Assembly (NCBI GenBank): GCA_037043015.1
Contig: CM073323.1
Location: 22,348,758-22,412,757, forward strand
DNA from: Bryum argenteum
Taxonomy: Eukaryota > Streptophyta > Bryopsida > Bryales > Bryaceae
Direction: 5' to 3'
Length of the DNA: 64,000 nucleotides
Below, one piece after another: positions 960-52,678 of this stretch; positions within the stretch are counted from its first letter, which is position 1; the number at the start of each line of letters is the position of its first letter. Both the position numbers and the translations under genes were made by a program. The notes beneath the pieces were generated by a model that saw only the letters and a program-made list of their open reading frames with translations, ran no database searches and was not told the DNA's origin.

Positions 960-963
960 TTAA

Positions 964-1832
964 CCCCTAAAGTTGAAATTGACCACGATCGACCGCAAAA
1001 AAAATATGTTGTTTTCGTAGAAACTAAAATTTTGAGTATATGACTCAAGATCTGTACGGTGAAATTTGATAAAAATTGGTGGTGATAGACTAATTAGATA
1101 GTTGCAACAAGATCCTATGGTTGGATTTTATCCAGAATCAAATTTTGAAGATTTCTTATATAGCTGTTTCGAGGTCATTGTAGAGATTTAGAGTGTAGAA
1201 CTTCAACCACTTTTGTGTTTAGCCCGAGTGAAGTCAGTAGTCTCAAGTCATTGTTGTTGTGTCATGTAGGCATATCATCAAAGGGTAGGTCGAACGGACA
1301 TTTTATTCACGCCAACCCAACAAGGGTTTCATTGGTGTTCTTATTTAGAAAAATTGTTGTGAGTATACCACACGAGTACACCCCAGAGTGGCAATTTACA
1401 CCCGAGGTAGGCATATATCACCATCACGGATGTAGTTGTTGGTATAGTGGCTGGTATGCTGAAGCCACTTTTTTATTAGTGCAACTTAACATTTAAGGGG
1501 TCACTCGTGGAGGAATATTTTTATGTTGAGATGCTATGTGAGCAGAAGGAAACAAAACTCTCTAGTACTTTAACATTAGACACAAAAGTTGATATCATTG
1601 TAGGATGAAATGTCCAAACTCTCTAAGGTACCAACACCTAAAAATTGAAAGAACAACAAAGTCACCTTCTTGATAATGGTGCAAATTTCAACATGGTAGA
1701 TTTTGTAGTAAGCTTCAGTCATGCGAGAATTTTGTGTGCATGGACAAAGTAATTATAATGGTCAAAGTTGGTTGGTTGTTTTTCGTGCGGGAACCTCATG
1801 AAGCCATTTCAGCTTTCTTGGATCTTTAGGGG
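964..1832. mobile_element. TTAA-flanked inverted-repeat element, 869 bp
   Basis: TTAA at 960-963 and 1833-1836. The ends are CCCCTAAAG on the left and, inverted, CCCCTAAAGATCC on the right. The last 70 bp are homologous to the right end of the next element (1877-2136). The interior includes a SINE-like 3' fragment (about 1265-1330) and no gene. Confidence 0.65.
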
Positions 1833-1876
1833 TTAAAAGATGGAGGGATTGTATTGACCGTTGCCCCGTACCTTAA

Positions 1877-2136
1877 CCCCTAAAGGTCCTTGATACAAAA
1901 TTGTTTAAATTATCAAAAAGAACCTTCATCTACTTCAGGTGGAAAGAAACTCAATCTAAGCATTGATTAGAAGATCCAACCGTAGGATCTTGAAGTTAAC
2001 TTGACCCTTTTCTCGAATGTCAAATTTGAACCGTTACTTTTTCTCGAATTTTGAGATTATAATGGTCAAAGTTGGCTGATTTTTCTCCCTGCGGGAATTC
2101 CAAAAAGCGATTTCCGCTTTCTTGGACCTTTAGGGG
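1877..2136. mobile_element. TTAA-flanked MITE, 260 bp
   Basis: TTAA at 1873-1876 and 2137-2140, with a perfect 13-bp terminal inverted repeat CCCCTAAAGGTCC. It lies only 36 bp from the element to its left and shares its right-end sequence. It has no coding capacity. Confidence 0.88.
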
Positions 2137-2377
2137 TTAATTCAAAATAAGGATGCTGAGAATTGATTCCAGGATCTCATGAATGGTAAGATTGCAAAGG
2201 CAATGGAGCAAATGAATGGAACCACCTGATTCTACAGTATAAGAACAGATACCTTCTCATCAAGGAATGCCCAACTTAACCCTTTCGACCACCTGAAAAG
2301 CCAGCATTGTGCTTTGTAAACAACATCAATTCTGCCCCAGCCTGCTTTTAGTGCTCACTTTTTGTTTCCTCAAACCG

Positions 2378-25369: not shown

Positions 25370-25399
25370 GAAAGGCGAGGAGATCTGCAGTAGCGAAAG

Positions 25400-28300
25400 A
25401 TGGCGTTAGAGGTGACGCAAATATTGTTGAATGCTCAGTCGCCAGATGGAAGCGTGCGGAAGGTTGCGGAAGATAGTCTGAAGCAGTTCCAAGAGCAGAA
25501 TCTTGCCTCTTTTTTGGTGTCTCTGTCTCACGAGCTTGCCAACAATGACAAGCCGCCGGAGAGTCGCAGACTTGCTGGATTGATCCTAAAAAACTCGTTG
25601 GATGCCAAGGAAAGTGTACGGAAGCAAGAGCTTGCGACGCGATGGGTGGCGTTGGATCCTACCGTGAAAGGGCAAATCAAGACGGCTCTTTCTCAGACTT
25701 TGTCTTCGATGGTGGCGGATGCCCGTCACACGTCTGCACAAGTTATTGCCAAGATTGCTGCTATCGAACTGCCGCAAGGCGAGTGGCCCGAACTTGTAGG
25801 ATCCTTGTTGGCTAACATGGGAGGCCCCCAATTAGAGCAGCCGTCCCATTTGAAACAAGCAACGTTAGAAGCGCTTGGATATGTGTGTGAAGAGGTTTCG
25901 TCTGAGATTCTCGCTCAAGAGCAAGTGAATTCCATCTTGACTGCCGTTGTTCAGGGCATGAACTCGTCGGAGACAAGCAATGATGTGAGACTGGCTGCTA
26001 CTCATGCTCTGTATAATGCCCTAGACTTCGCACAAACTAACTTCGATAATGATATGGAGCGCGACTACATTATGCGGGTGGTCTGTGAGGCCACTCTGTC
26101 GCCAGATGTCCGAGTTCGTCAAGCTGCCTTCGAATGCCTAGTCTCCATTGGCTCCACATACTACGATAAGCTTTCCCCCTACATGCCTGACATTTTCACG
26201 ATTACCTCCAAAGCCGTGAAGGAAGACGAGGAGCCTGTTGCACTTCAAGCCATCGAGTTCTGGAGCTCTATCTGTGATGAGGAGATCGAGATTTTAGAGG
26301 ATTACCAAGGTGAATTCTCTGGTGATTCAGAGGTTCCTTGCTTCAACTTCATCAAGCAGGCCTTGCCTGCCCTCGTCCCGATGTTGCTCGATACCTTGAC
26401 GAAGCAGGAGGAAGATCAAGAGCTGGAGGAAGGGGCCTGGAACTTGTCCATGGCTGGTGGAACATGTCTTGGTCTTGTGGCTCGTGCTGTTGGGGATGAT
26501 GTTGTGCCTCTTGTCATGCCATTTGTGCAAGGGAATGTGTCGAAGCCCGACTGGAGATGTCGTGAGGCTGCTACCTACGCTTTTGGATCCATTCTGGAGG
26601 GTCCTTCGTTGGATAAGCTGACCCCTCTCGTCCATGTTGCTCTTACCTTCATGTTGCAAGCAATGAAGGACGAGAACAACCATGTGAAGGATACTACGGC
26701 TTGGACACTTGGAAGGATCTTCGAGTTTCTCCATGGACCATCTCTGGAAGCCCCTGTTATCAATCAGACCAATTTGCCCATCATTCTTGCTGTCCTCTTG
26801 GAGGCCATCAAGGATACGCCGAACGTTGCTGAGAAGGTTTGCGGGGCTATCTATTTCTTGGCACAGGGGTATGAAGAAGGTGGTCAGTCATCATCTCCTC
26901 TATCTCCCTTCTTCCAGAGCATCGTGCAAGCCTTGTTGGCGACCACGGAGAGGGAGGATTCAGGAGACTCTCGTCTACGAACATCGGCATACGAGACTCT
27001 TAACGAAGTTGTGAGAATCTCAACGGAGGACACCGCACCGATCGTCATGCAGCTGGTGCCCGTCATTATGCAGAAACTCAATGTCACTTTGGAGATGGCC
27101 GTGCTGTCTTCCGATGACCGAGAGAAGCAGAGTGAATTGCAGGCCCTCCTGTGTGGTGTTCTGCAGGTAAGTGACGACATCATTGGCTCTCTTGCACTGC
27201 TAATTGTTTGATCTCAAGCTAGCTCTCTCGTCGTGTCGTTCATTTCTTTGCTGGTGTGCAGACCCTGCTTTTTAGATTAGTCTTGCTGTATTTTTGATTT
27301 TATAGCTCATGTCGTTAATGAGCATACTTCAGTCAATCTACTTCTTGGTATGTTGGCTACTCTAGTCTAACATTGTGCTGTCTTTATTAACGATTGGTTG
27401 TGGCTGCTTCATGTTTTTCGAGCACACGTTAAGATAAATTTGTCTCGATTGTGCAGGTCATTATCCAGAAGTTAGGTGCATCGGAGGGAACGAAGTACGG
27501 TGTGGTGCAGTACGCCGACAATATGATGGGTCTTTTCCTTCGTGTCTTCGCGTGCCGCAGTGCAACTGTCCACGAGGAAGCCATGCTTGCAATCGGAGCC
27601 TTGGCATACGCAACGGGTGCTGGCTTTGAGAAGTACATGAGCGAATTTTACCGGTACTTGGAAATGGGTCTCCAGAACTTTGAAGAATATCAGGTATTTA
27701 AGTATTGCACGTTACATGTCATTCGTTGCCTTTCACTGGTGGCAAGTGTATTCAGATCTGCCACACGAATCGGTTTCTTTTCCTTCTCATCTCGTTACAT
27801 ATAACTGTGACTTCTCATTTCGTTTCATATAACTGTGATGGTCCATATTCGCTTTTCTATGACTAATTCGGGATGAGTTTGTACAGGTATGTGCGGTGAC
27901 AGTTGGAGTAGTCGGTGATATTTGCCGGGCATTGGATGAGGCGGTGCTGCCTTACTGCGACGGTATCATGACCCAGCTTTTGAAGGACTTGTCGAGCAAC
28001 CAGTTGCACCGATCAGTGAAGCCACCCATTTTCTCTTGTTTTGGAGATATTGCTCTCGCAATCGGAGAGCACTTCGAGAAGTATTTGATTTATGCCATGC
28101 CCATGCTCCAAGGAGCCGCTGAGCTTTCTGCCCAGCCTTCAGTAGGTGACGACGAGATGATTGACTACAACAACCAGCTCCGAAGTGGAATCTTTGAGGC
28201 TTACTCTGGTATCTTCCAAGGATTCAAGTCGAACAAGGCAGACCTAATGGCACCTTATGCCGCACACATTCTGCAGTTTATTGAGAACGTGTACCAGGAC

Positions 28301-28609
28301 AAGGACAGGTATGATACTGTCTTACCACTAACTGATTTGACCTGCCTACATTATTTCTGCAAGTTCCATAGGGGATGCTAATCATTTATGCTTTCATTGG
28401 AATGATGCAGGGACGATGTGGTGACCAAGGCGGCAATTGGAGTGATGGGTGATTTGGCTGATACGCTGGGAGCGGGCGCAGCAGCTCTATTCAAGCGGAC
28501 GGTGTTCTTCAAGGACTTCCTGGATGAATGCACATCTGTAGATGACCAGCAGCTAAAGGAGACAGCAGAGTGGGCTCAGGGCACGATTGCACGTATTGTA
28601 TCTGGATGA
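25400..28609 (+). CDS. KPNB1: Importin subunit beta-1, nuclear import receptor (4 coding exons, 874 aa)
   Basis: HEAT-repeat nuclear transport receptor. It binds importin alpha or cargo in the cytoplasm, carries it through the pore and releases it on Ran-GTP. Coding exons: 25400-27166, 27457-27693, 27887-28308, 28411-28609, all GT/AG with the frame preserved. The N-terminus (MALEVTQILLNAQSPDG) and the importin-beta N-terminal domain (about residues 20-100, with ESRRLAGLILKNSLDAK) are clear. HEAT repeats run the full length. The acidic loop region around IEILEDYQGEFSGDSE and the C-terminal block ELKETAEW-like (LKETAEWAQGTIARIV) are intact. Length agrees with Arabidopsis KPNB1 (870 aa). The first exon is exceptionally long (589 codons) and the last three are short. 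No damage is seen. Confidence 0.97.
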
Positions 28610-38909: not shown

Positions 38910-39564
38910 GATACGGGAAGAGCTCGATATGAGCTCAATAAGAGCTTGGAGCTCGGTTAAGTTAGGGTTTAGGATCGAGGGTTTAGAAAATACGTAGATC
39001 TTGACAGGAGATTTTCACATAAGCTATATACTTTCAGAATTTCGATAGATTTTTTCTTGTTTCTAAGGTACGAGTGCATGGATGCGGGCAATTGCTCGAG
39101 TAGAGACGTCATCGATGCTCTAGACGTGTGACGTATCCCTCCGAGCCGGGAGATGTGTCATTCTTTGTCCAATGGCTAAAGGCACAAGTACCGCAAGCAG
39201 AAGGGGCCGGAGATCGTCTTGACGAGGACGCCGTACAATACTCATGTCCTCTAGAGCCGTTCGCAACCTTTCATCAGCAAATGAACTCATTCGGGATGCA
39301 TTTGCAGGTGCAGACGTCGTAGGCGGACCTTGTTACTAGGGACTCATGTGTGGTGGCCACTTATACGCAACACTTGCGTTTGGCGATTCGCAATGGGAGG
39401 CTCATTGAGCATATCGCTCAGCATGTGGAATCCAGGTGATACACGAGTTGGATTACTGTAATCTCTGCACTAGGCTTTTGCTATGCCAATGGTAAGAGCC
39501 TCACCGAACATTCGAGTGACGGGTATTGAATGTGACAAGTACGGATTCACCATGGCAAACTTAA

Positions 39565-40520
39565 CCTCCAAACGACCAAGGCGTCTGATTTGGAGATTTG
39601 CGATTTTGGCAGCCAAAATGATGGTCTTAGAAGTAAATTTTTTTCTAAGATTTTAACTGGATGTTCCCTATACTACAAGGTGTATGTGGGAAAATTTGCA
39701 ATGTCAAACTCCACCTCTAGAGTTTTTAAGCCCAAATTTTAGTTTTCAGCCTTAGAGCAGGCAAAAAAAACTTTTAATTTTACCTTTTTTTTTAGTTTAA
39801 ATATATAAAAATTAAAAAATTAAAAAAAAAAATTAAAAAAAATTGATTGATTTTGTACTTAGGTCTTCAAGTGACTCAAGTTGAAACTTGTACCAATCCT
39901 ACAAGGACACCCTTCAAAAATTACAAGAGCTAGATTCAAAGTTTTCTATGAAATTACAATTTTTTCTTTCAAAATTTCCCAAAATTTGAGATTTTGGAGT
40001 TTTTTGAATTTCTTCTGTCTTGAAATTCAGAAACTCAAGAAGGTATATACTCGCCGTTCATTTTTCCCCCAAACCATATACAATAAACGTGGTGCATGTT
40101 TTACCAAATCCTTGATTTCTACCTTCTTCTAGTAAATAAATTGCATGAAGGTTCAATTGTTCAAGAAAAAAAATGAGTGTCTAAAATTTTGCATGGGCAT
40201 GCTCAATTTAGTTATATACATGGAAAAAAATTTGAGCTAGATGTTTAAGGTAATAAACATCACATTTTCCTTTGCACAAAGTAGACTATGTTTGTAGAAA
40301 AAAAGATCGCATCAATTTTGAATGTTACGATCTTATAAATGGCAAAGATCCAACGGTTGAAATTTCAGCCACTACCTCTAATGGTAGTTCTCTTTAAGAT
40401 CATACAGTTGAAAGTTTCAAAAAAGTGTAAAAAATATTCTCATACTCCAAAGTTTACAAGGTGGTATGAAATTGCAATTTTGGAGTTTGGAGCTCACAAA
40501 ACACCATGGTCGTTTAGGGG
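39565..40520. mobile_element. TTAA-flanked inverted-repeat element, 956 bp, nested in the CACTA element
   Basis: Flanked by TTAA at 39561-39564 and 40521-40524. The left end reads CCTCCAAACGACCAAGGCGT; the right end, inverted, reads CCCCTAAACGACCATGGTGT, so about 16 of 20 bases match. The interior is AT-rich with no real ORF. Homologous interiors occur at about 4193-5050, 30900-31522 and 63590-64000 (window edge). The TTAA target with ends beginning CC(C/T) is the pattern of piggyBac-type elements. Superfamily assignment is inference. Confidence 0.75.
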
Positions 40521-41596
40521 TTAAATCACATGGACAACGGAGAGCATCCGTAGTCATTTGCATTCGCCTTGCACTATCAACAAGTTTTTTCTCCAATCAC
40601 AAAACAAGACACGGATGAAAGATTATATGCCAAACAGATTTAGTGGTCGGCGTACAAGATTACATCATCGGCAACCTGCAGCGAATGGAATCGCAATCAA
40701 TGACGACGCGAACTTCCAATGCTTACAACCGCAGATCTTGGAGATAGAGCCTACTTAGAGACTTGTGCCAACAAGAGCATTCTATGCTATAGCCACAACA
40801 AATTCAGAAAGTGATCGTGAAATAGAGGATGAGTAGTAAAAGAAGTTAGTACTGCCGCTTAAGAGAAAAGGATGGATAGTAGGATGTCGTGCAAGACATT
40901 TTTACGGACGTCCTAGTCGATGTCTACGGTGACGTATTTGTGTTACTGTAGTCATAATAAGCCGGATGTCCATAGAAACATCCGCCTTGATGTACTATCG
41001 TTTGATGTGGAGATTTTTCTTTCCATGTAAATAAAGCGCAGTAAATTAGGTTTTTCATGTATCTCCACCTCTACTCTAATTAAATATCAGTGAAATTACT
41101 CATAATTAGAAAATCTTTGTTTTTTACATCTATATTATTTTATTGATATTTAATTATTTATATAATATTGATAAAATATTTTGGTAATTTCATATCAATA
41201 AAAACTAATATTGTTTAGAAATTATATTATTATCATATCATAATTTCCTTAACTATATAAAAAATTTACTTCTTATATCTTACTAAAATACAAAATTAAA
41301 TTTGTATATTATTCAAAAACTCAACCAATGACAAATTAGTGAGAATATTCTGAATTTAATATTTCCAATATTGCCATGTAACAAAATAAAAAGTTTTATA
41401 GGAGAAATAAACACTTTTTAAAAGTTTGATTTTTTATTTTTTATTTTTTTTAACTCTTGAAAACCAGTAGAAAGTGTTTCTTGTAAATTCTATAAAACTC
41501 CGTTTTTATCATTTTATTTCCATTGTGGATGGTTAAGGGAATGGGGTTATAAATGGTGTTGAAATCAGTCTAAATATTTTTTTTATGTAGATCCCC

Positions 41597-47018: not shown

Positions 47019-47742
47019 CCCGTAAGGAGAAACGCGCATGGGTCTGAAATGGGCAGCCCAAAATTGGATCACAACATCTTTTGGACTTGGGCATCATGAA
47101 TAGTGCACTTTTTGGATTTGGGCACCAATCAATGATGAGCTTACAACATCCTACAAGGTTATATACACCCCAACCTACCTACCACAATCCTTTCAAAGCA
47201 CAAAACCACTCATATAAATTGTGATGTGAATTGTAAAATTTCAGTTTCCGAATGCATCATGTGAAGGTGACTAGTTTGAGATTAAAATATAAGTGAAAAG
47301 TCAAGTAGAGTGAGAGCTATAGAGAAGATTCTATTGGAAAAAGGCCTCTGTGGCTTGCTAGGGCGTTTAACCCTTAGACGTCTAGCTATACAGATTTGGG
47401 CAGCCCAATATTGGATCACAACATCTTTTGGACTTGGGCATCATGAATAGTGCATTTTTTGAACTTGGGCATCATGAATGATCCAATCAATGATGAGCTT
47501 GCAACCTCCTACAAGGTTATGTACAACCCCAACCTACCTACCACAATCCTTTCAAAGCACAAATCACTCATACAAATTGTGATTTGAATTGTAAAATTTC
47601 ACTTTTTGAATGCATCACAAGAAGGTGACCAGTTTGACATTAAAATATGAGTGAAAAGTTGAGTACATTGAGAGCTACAGAGGAGATTCTGTTGGAAACG
47701 GCCCCCTCGGGGCCGCTCAGACGTTTAAGGGTTAATGGTTAA
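47019..47742. mobile_element. TTAA-flanked MITE (outer copy), interrupted by a second copy of its own family
   Basis: The outer element starts at 47019 after TTTA (a changed TTAA). It runs to 47366, continues with TGG at 47736-47738 and is closed by TTAA at 47739-47742. Its interior matches the single copy at 52313-52674 throughout, including GGGCAGCCCAAAATTGGATC and CCCCAACCTACCTACCACAA. The consensus right end is GGGCGTTTAAGGG plus TTAA. The inner copy (47371-47731) is inserted exactly at the TTAA within that CGTTTAAGGG terminal sequence, duplicating it. Confidence 0.82.
47371..47731. mobile_element. TTAA-flanked MITE (inner copy), 361 bp
   Basis: Begins CCCTTAGACGTC after TTAA (47367-47370) and ends GACGTTTAAGGG before TTAA (47732-47735). 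It has no coding capacity. It belongs to the same family and orientation as the outer copy and the copy at 52313. The terminal inverted repeat of about 10-12 bp begins CCCTTA(A/G)ACG. Confidence 0.88.
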
Positions 47743-48200: not shown

Positions 48201-48881
48201 CAAGAACCTTCATTTTTGACTTGTTCATTGTATAATTGTGTTTGGTGTGTCTTGAAATGCAAAATCATTAAAGATAGAGGTATTAGTTTAGAATTTTGAC
48301 ATGTACTTTTGGGAATCTAAGAGGAGGAGTAGGTTGAGATGTAGAGAACCAAAAAACACTTCTTGAGATATTTATTAGTACAAATTCTTGAATTGGTTGT
48401 TAGTTAGTTAGTCACGTATTACTCATATGTACGGTGCCATGCAAGAAGCATGTACTTCATCAACTTAGTATAAACACATCCTTGTCGAGAAATTACACAA
48501 ACATCTACCAGTTCATAGAAAAAGTTATGATTATTAATAGAGCCGTATACTATACTTGGTGACACTTGTGAATTTTGAGGATATTCTACTTTAACCACCA
48601 ATATACTTCTTCTGCAAGAAATATTTTAATCTCAATGGAATTATTCCACATGTACATTGATCGATGCATTAGATCTATAGTTTTACAGTTATATGTGATA
48701 TGTAAAAAAAGAAAACTTTGTACACAATCAATAGTGACTACTTTGCATTAGTGTACTAGAATATGTACAAAAATGTTCCAAACTTATACCGAACAAGCGA
48801 GAAAGTCTAAATGTGTGGAGAGATAAAGGATCATCAAACATTGAACAATGTATCGATAACAAAATTTTATCGAAATTTTAA

Positions 48882-49106
48882 CCCTTAAAGGTCCATTGGG
48901 GATAGTATGTACGGTGGCGTATAATTGAGATTTGCTACCAACAAGAAACTCTATATTGAGATCTTAAAAGCTTAGTAGAACCACATGGATTTATATGTCA
49001 ACTTCTTCTTTGAACTCAAATCTATTAAAGGTGTGCACTCATTCCAATACAAACAAAATACGCTGTATTCTAGCAACCAAAATATGGTTGTTTAGACCTT
49101 TAAGGG
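48882..49106. mobile_element. TTAA-flanked MITE, 225 bp
   Basis: TTAA at 48878-48881 and 49107-49110. The ends are CCCTTAAAGGTCC on the left and, inverted, CCCTTAAAGGTCT on the right, a 12-bp perfect terminal repeat. There is no coding capacity. It is about 780 bp downstream of the small mitochondrial-type gene's stop codon. Confidence 0.85.
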
Positions 49107-49888
49107 TTAAGCTAAAATCAATGTCCAATTGTCTACACGAGTGTGAAATACAACACAATATGTTGTTCGGTAATCACTACATTTTGGTGCATATGATGTC
49201 CTTTGTGTTGTATTCTCAACTATGACAAGAGTTATACAACTTCAAACTACGATCATTGTTAAATACTTGAGCATATTTGGTCCTCATAAGTCAATTTACA
49301 AAGAACTTGATGAAAATTGAGTTGAAACAAGTGTATCGACCCGCTCCAGGCCATCTTGGCCAAGGGTTAAGGTGAACATTGCTCTTAAATGTACCCATAT
49401 CTCGAATCTACCATACATACATCTAGAGTAAAAGCACATCTCATGAAATCTCTTTCTTCTACACTTATTAGCAAATTTCGAAGTTAGTAAAGCACAGTCC
49501 AATTTCGACATGTACATAATTGCAATCTGAACCGCAATGTCTTTCCCTGAAGCAAATCAAGGAGAAATGCGATTCTCTAACATATGAATTAACGGTATAC
49601 CACTCGAAGCTCAAGCCTCTGAATAGTAGAAAGATAAAATCAAATGACACTCCAGAATTCAAGGCAAATGTAGCACTGTAAAAATTAGGGTTTCCTGATA
49701 CGAATCATGCCATGGCTAACAATACACGGCATTGCAAACTATGAAACAAGAGAATCGTAGAAATTGATTTACTCATATACATGAAGAGATGCTCACATTT
49801 CCAGCTGATCGGTAGAAAGCGGTCTCCGATGGCGTGATCAACAATTGATCAGAGGTCTTGAATGGCGAGCTAAAACTAATGCGGCGAT

Positions 49889-52295: not shown

Positions 52296-52312
52296 TATAA
52301 AGTGGGCCTTAA

Positions 52313-52674
52313 CCCTTAAACGCCCATGGGGTCTGAAACGGGCAGCCCAAAATTGGATCACAGCATCTTTGGGACTTGGGCATCATGAATAGTGCACTTT
52401 TTGAACTTGGGCACCATGAATGAACCAATCAATGATGAGCTTGCAACCTCCTACAAGGTTATGTACAACCCCAACCTACCTACCACAATCCTTTCAAACC
52501 ATAAAATCATACATACAAATTGTGATTTGAATTGTAAAATTTCACTTTTTGAATGCATCACAAGATGGTGACCAATTTGACATCAAAATATAAGTGAAAA
52601 GTTGTTTACAGTGAGAGCTACAGGAAAGATTCTATTGGAATCAAGCCCCTCGGGCTTGCTTGGGCGTATAAGGG
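52313..52674. mobile_element. TTAA-flanked MITE, 362 bp, single copy
   Basis: TTAA at 52309-52312 and 52675-52678. The left end is CCCTTAAACGCCC; the right end, inverted, is CCCTTATACGCCC. It is the most complete copy of the family that also gives the nested pair at 47019-47742. It lies 13 bp from the neighbouring MITE. Confidence 0.92.
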
Positions 52675-52678
52675 TTAA

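Follow-up and report, generated by a model that had tools for sequence, protein, structure and literature searches.

Short TTAA-bounded elements in the moss Bryum argenteum share termini with long elements encoding a piggyBac-type transposase

The element under study lies at 52309..52678 (+ strand) of a 64,000-nucleotide stretch of the Bryum argenteum genome, referred to here as the window, and comprises a 362-bp inverted-repeat element, interpreted below as a non-autonomous piggyBac element (MITE F), together with its target duplications, TTAA at 52309–52312 and 52675–52678. The left terminal inverted repeat (52313..52326, + strand) is CCCTTAAACGCCCA, and the right one (52661..52674, − strand) departs from the family majority by one substitution. 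Among 30 F copies retrieved from the genome, CCCTTAAACGCCCA was present at the locus-left end in 27 and as one-base variants in three; 18 of the 30 are reversed, so that the locus-left end there is the element's other end.

MITE F is one of six inverted-repeat elements in the window, each flanked on both sides by TTAA. The other five are element A (960..1836; 869 bp, ends CCCCTAAAG), MITE B (1873..2140; 260 bp, ends CCCCTAAAGGTCC), element C (39561..40524; 956 bp, of the internal-deletion type), MITE D (47367..47735, + strand; F family) and MITE E (48878..49110; 225 bp, ends CCCTTAAAGGTCC, TTAA on each side), with no strand assigned to A, B, C or E. All six had been proposed in an earlier sequence-only reading, whose coordinates exclude the TTAA and are exact to the base for the element interiors. 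The same reading gave the ends as starting CCCTTA or CCCCTA, a description that holds for most of them but fails at the left end of element C, which is CCTCC, and at the left end of MITE D, which is CCCTTAGACG; the CCC start of the termini is general apart from the CCT of element C. MITE D and MITE F belong to the same family, with 90% identity over 339 bp, and MITE D is itself hosted by an older F-family copy (about 47030..47742, + strand) with a decayed left end. In the right end of this host, MITE D sits at an internal TTAA of the right inverted repeat, giving the order GGGCGT-TTAA-[D]-TTAA-TGG-TTAA, which differs from the majority by one base.

As a control within the window, TTAA-anchored inverted pairs were collected at a threshold of at least 10 of 12 matching bases and a spacing of 60–1600 bp. 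Eight such pairs were obtained, of which six are the six elements, one (960–2140) joins the outer ends of the neighbours A and B, and one (41080–41153) is unrelated to these. Thirteen of 15 alternative 4-mer anchors gave 0–5 pairs, while TATA gave 175 and ATAT 157, the few of these that were printed lying mostly in one simple repeat around 45.6 kb. The window also carries an importin beta-1 gene at 25394–28381 (+ strand) with at least two open stretches. As the sequence-only reading had stated, no transposase was detected in the window, and a tblastn search with 20 transposase proteins from the same genome (E 1e-3) found no transposase remnant there either.

The target site was examined across the genome. 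With no selection by similarity, 921 of 1035 exact CCCTTAAACGCCCATG ends were preceded by TTAA, and TTAA was present on both flanks in 30 of 30 retrieved MITE F copies, a favourable sample in that the query to which these copies had to be similar over its whole length contains the TTAA. Exact empty sites were provided by nested insertions. Specifically, at locus L015 the order is TTAACCC, TTAA, the MITE, TTAA and ACGCCCATGG, the whole lying within the end of another copy, and the uninterrupted form of such an end (through ATG) occurs 921 times. Both exact nested junctions were present at 15 loci, a figure reached by comparing 41 of the 61 right-hand junctions against 98 of the 136 left-hand ones. 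In addition, for five F copies the two flanks, once joined, matched other retrieved sequence through the junction, in 16 rows. Five of these, from L024, were left out as its flanks are MITE copies themselves, and the 11 rows from L016, L017, L019 and L023 have no gap in the four columns where the TTAA would fall; these rows show 66–88% identity, with nearby gaps in several, and carry letters such as TTCA, TTGA or CCAA, never TTAA. Taken with the TTAA on both flanks, the exact nested empty sites establish that the duplication is exactly four bases, TTAA, and that TTAA lies outside the terminal repeat, in accordance with the sequence-only reading, which had treated it as target sequence. Self-nesting was seen at window positions 47030–47742 and at L015, L020 and L024, with a MITE in an internal TTAA of the terminal repeat of another copy or in a TTAA shared with a neighbour. 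Exact self-nesting junctions numbered 61 genome-wide against 13–27 expected with uniform use of TTAA, a 2–5-fold excess that is not pressed here, the expectation using a genome TTAA number scaled from the window.

These data bear on the idea that the elements are PIF/Harbinger-like (Tourist) MITEs whose 3-bp TTA/TAA duplication reads by chance as TTAA. The four letters do hold both TTA and TAA, and plant Tourist MITEs are described as duplicating TAA/TTA in the available text of PMC10004981; yet the full TTAA stands on both flanks of all 30 selected copies and before the great majority of exact ends, in the nested insertions the duplication comes to exactly four bases, and neither the F copies nor the nested junctions show the 3-bp TWA duplication of PIF/Harbinger. 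As elements sharing termini with A, B, C and F moreover encode PF13843 (see below), a Harbinger-like origin is given virtually no weight.

A PF13843 profile search of the genome yielded at least 116 scored regions, a lower bound with 776 candidates at first look; every one of the 116 passed the cut-off, with a best E of 7.4e-82, and matches were present on all 11 contigs (C1–C11). Twenty PF13843 regions were fetched with their flanks for analysis of ends and ORFs. In 12 of them (L039, L040, L042, L044, L046, L047, L048, L049, L050, L052, L054 and L058) the transposase region sits between TTAA-bounded, CC-starting paired ends 4.9–6.5 kb apart, ends being counted as paired if they agreed at 11 or more of 16 bases or over a run of at least 6. 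For L039, the top-scoring pairing extends to the end of a neighbouring MITE (7.3 kb), and the inner pair was used. A search of the same genome for a PF13843 transposase between the same ends was the check that the sequence-only reading had set beforehand, and these 12 of 20 regions answer it. The other eight regions had no paired CC ends; L043 gave unrelated pairs only, and for L055 and L056 the reason is that the retrieved sequence breaks off at the transposase.

Six whole ORFs were scanned against Pfam, matching PF13843 at 3.9e-72 to 1.4e-82 and nothing else; neither the Pfam zinc-ribbon nor, in the long N-terminal parts, any other Pfam entry was matched in these six. The L044 ORF also matched the structures of the Trichoplusia ni piggyBac transposase 6x67 (1.4e-28) and of piggyBat 9c0f (3.8e-28), and in the alignment with 6x67 the DDD motifs line up. 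The first catalytic aspartate was found in 20 of 20 transposases (in L041 by eye), the second in 19 (L045 has E) and the third in all 20 (L040 has RVD for GVD), with a GVDxxDQ motif in most copies. Twelve of the 20 ORFs carry a C-terminal six-Cys-plus-His pattern, to which the remaining eight did not conform, several appearing by eye to be truncated, mutated or differently spaced. Stop-to-stop frames reached 1187 aa, and 368–715 residues precede the PF13843 core in L040, L041, L044, L046, L047, L049, L050, L053, L054 and L057. Six lineages can be distinguished among the 20 transposases, with 32–46% identity to one another and 71–98% within, with the exception of L045, which is 56% identical to its nearest relative. 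Lineages so far apart together with pairs of up to 98% identity indicate a piggyBac population that is old, diverse and recently multiplied.

The elements of the window could be tied to these partners through their termini. Bases 1–43 of MITE F correspond to the 3' terminus of L039 at 84%, from TTAA inward, and its bases 337–370 (the last 34 bp) to the 5' terminus of L039 at 88%, from TTAA; the same two-ended alignment with MITE F was obtained for L040 and L058. The last 29 bp of element A, TTAA included, are identical to the 5' terminus of L044 and L052, and the right 40 bp of MITE B share 80–85% with the 5' termini of L042, L049, L050 and L054. The right 340–410 bp of element C share 69–71% with the 3'-terminal regions of L044, L049, L050, L052 and L054, the alignment to all five stopping at the same TTAA. 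A PF13843 partner with matching ends was found in this way for A, B, C and F, and for D via F; for MITE E, none of the 20 retrieved transposase regions gave a match (E 1e-3). The superfamily assignment made in the sequence-only reading, to piggyBac, is thereby borne out, the elements that share these termini encoding a PF13843 transposase.

Production of the MITEs by another TTAA-targeting superfamily was also considered. Kolobok and a Sola group have a TTAA preference, and TTAA by itself cannot separate superfamilies; Sola, furthermore, stands in the plant-superfamily table in the available part of PMC9033089. Against this, the long elements with these termini code for the piggyBac domain, and most ends start with CCC, a common piggyBac start in an animal survey, where CCCTT is given as the most conserved one (PMC10813416, in the text available). 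A Kolobok or Sola origin is accordingly rated as very improbable, if slightly less so than a Harbinger-like one.

The family is abundant. The end word TTAACCCTTAAACG occurs 5945 times in the 258.8-Mb genome, ends of long elements included, against 4 occurrences of a reversed-word control, and CCCTTAAACGCCCATG occurs 1035 times against 0, which excludes chance for both words. With MITE F as query, 40 scored genome matches at 96–100% identity were obtained, including the window's own copy, and 39 of the 40 span the whole query; the 30 retrieved copies differ from their majority at a median of 6 of 377 columns. For MITE B, identity to the window copy is 96–98% among the best 39 of the other genome matches. 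As best-hit samples, these F and B divergences reveal young copies and not a mean age.

The distribution among contigs is uneven. Contigs C1–C4 measure 44.1, 34.6, 30.6 and 28.7 Mb, together more than half of the 258.8 Mb, and C1, the largest seen, holds only 94 of the 5945 F-type ends against 1013 expected from its size, a depletion of about 11-fold; 5 of the 116 listed PF13843 matches are on C1. C1 could be a non-recombining sex chromosome, judging from this sequence pattern. Near C1 positions 1956257, 5243871, 10458708 and 16523341, MITE ends lie 3.2–3.3 kb from a short TTTAGGG array (4 of 9 ends checked, out of 13 listed), and this shared spacing suggests that a larger repeat may have carried MITE end and array together. 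TTTAGGG arrays are present inside contigs, and the telomere repeat was absent from the five contig tips examined. As a separate observation, the genome gave 90 matches to PF00504 (chlorophyll-binding genes), with clusters of weak matches at C5:8.16–8.41 Mb, C5:14.73–14.76 Mb and C2:25.06–25.09 Mb, which we would guess to be an expanded ELIP-like family. For one LHCII gene the top structures were 9vfj (a longer multi-repeat chain), 7xqp and 8htu, followed by 8c29; 7xqp and 8htu are presumably from Physcomitrium patens and 8c29 from spruce. Together with the TTTAGGG arrays, these matches give good support for a land plant as host and point to a moss as likely.

Since piggyBac is best known from animals, contamination or a single very recent horizontal transfer might be invoked in place of a native plant population. 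The matches, however, occupy all 11 contigs, the transposases form six lineages that are far apart from one another and, L045 aside, close within, and MITE copies are lodged both in one another and in other repeats. A foreign or newly arrived source is for these reasons considered very unlikely, although it keeps a somewhat larger share of our doubt than either of the other superfamily readings.

The reading preferred here, to which we assign a probability of about 96%, is that the window elements belong, as non-autonomous MITEs and internal-deletion derivatives, to piggyBac families that reside in the plant's nuclear genome, and that full-length relatives of about 5–6.5 kb encode a piggyBac transposase, which probably moves the short copies at TTAA. 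Transposase genes, shared termini, TTAA duplication, nesting, high copy number and young copies are the direct observations behind it. In such a scheme, the piggyBac transposase encoded by the full-length relatives would recognise, in trans, the terminal tens of bases shared by the short copies and would excise these precisely by cut-and-paste, both steps being modelled on insect piggyBac; reinsertion at TTAA would then duplicate those four bases. More broadly, the sequence data make it fairly likely that piggyBac has long resided in at least one land-plant lineage, probably the mosses, as a TIR superfamily that has diversified and been active recently, in addition to the six superfamilies of a review; the same picture includes the six transposase lineages among 20 copies, the thousands of family-type ends, their near absence from the largest chromosome and the repeated insertion into TTAA of the elements' own terminal repeats.

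The available parts of the literature are divided on this point. In the land-plant review PMC9033089, plant TIR elements are divided into six superfamilies, with no occurrence of the word piggy in the text available, while the plant TE review PMC10794571 includes PiggyBac in its class II superfamilies of plants and PMC10004981 lists piggyBac as one of seven angiosperm MITE superfamilies. Table entries exist for C-fern (1230 PiggyBac hits, 0.00%; PMC6890710) and for the grass Stipa (one PiggyBac element of 75 bp; PMC8319324), and PMC10813416 and PMC10140906 state that piggyBac is found in plants, with no species named in the passages concerned. The sequence-only reading had also suggested that land plants rarely have such elements or have no record of them. 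This is the weaker part of that reading: it is in keeping with the review that omits piggyBac, but an absence of records conflicts with the papers naming piggyBac in plants. Among the literature matches listed, in the parts available, no description of an autonomous (transposase-coding) piggyBac element in a land plant was found, the superfamily survey PMC5381638, subscription papers and Repbase being outside this scope. The disagreement between the reviews (PMC9033089 and PMC10794571) implies that such elements may be mislabelled or missed. A single plant genome here combines copies that encode the transposase, short derivatives matched to them and empty sites, and raises the question of whether piggyBac in land plants was inherited or gained by transfer. 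The T. ni piggyBac is already used in plants (PMC5505980, in the part available), and the development of seamless excision tools for plants would naturally begin with a piggyBac transposase that resides in a plant and has short ends matched to it.

Compared with known systems, the elements share with piggyBac (6x67) and piggyBat (9c0f) the PF13843 core, the three catalytic aspartates, the TTAA duplication, the CCC ends, GVDxxDQ in most copies and, in 12 of 20, the C-terminal Cys/His-rich segment, but differ in their plant host and in the long N-terminal parts, with frames of up to 1187 aa. The T. ni element is given as 2472 bp in the accessible text of PMC10140906, compared with 4.9–6.5 kb between paired ends here. 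The piggyBac entries of the plant papers carry the same superfamily name but, in the parts available, as a repeat-library label or in a list of names, with no transposase or empty site shown. Animal piggyBac MITEs, as listed for coral (PMC2872659) and Daphnia Pokey (PMC3849761, PMC4912750), are likewise short TTAA-associated derivatives, whereas the present ones belong to a land plant and have 5945 exact family-type ends. The Tourist and Stowaway MITEs of plants are likewise short, non-coding, inverted-repeat elements in many copies, but differ in their duplications, TAA/TTA and TA, respectively, and in their partners, PIF/Harbinger and Tc1/mariner (PMC10004981, in the part available).
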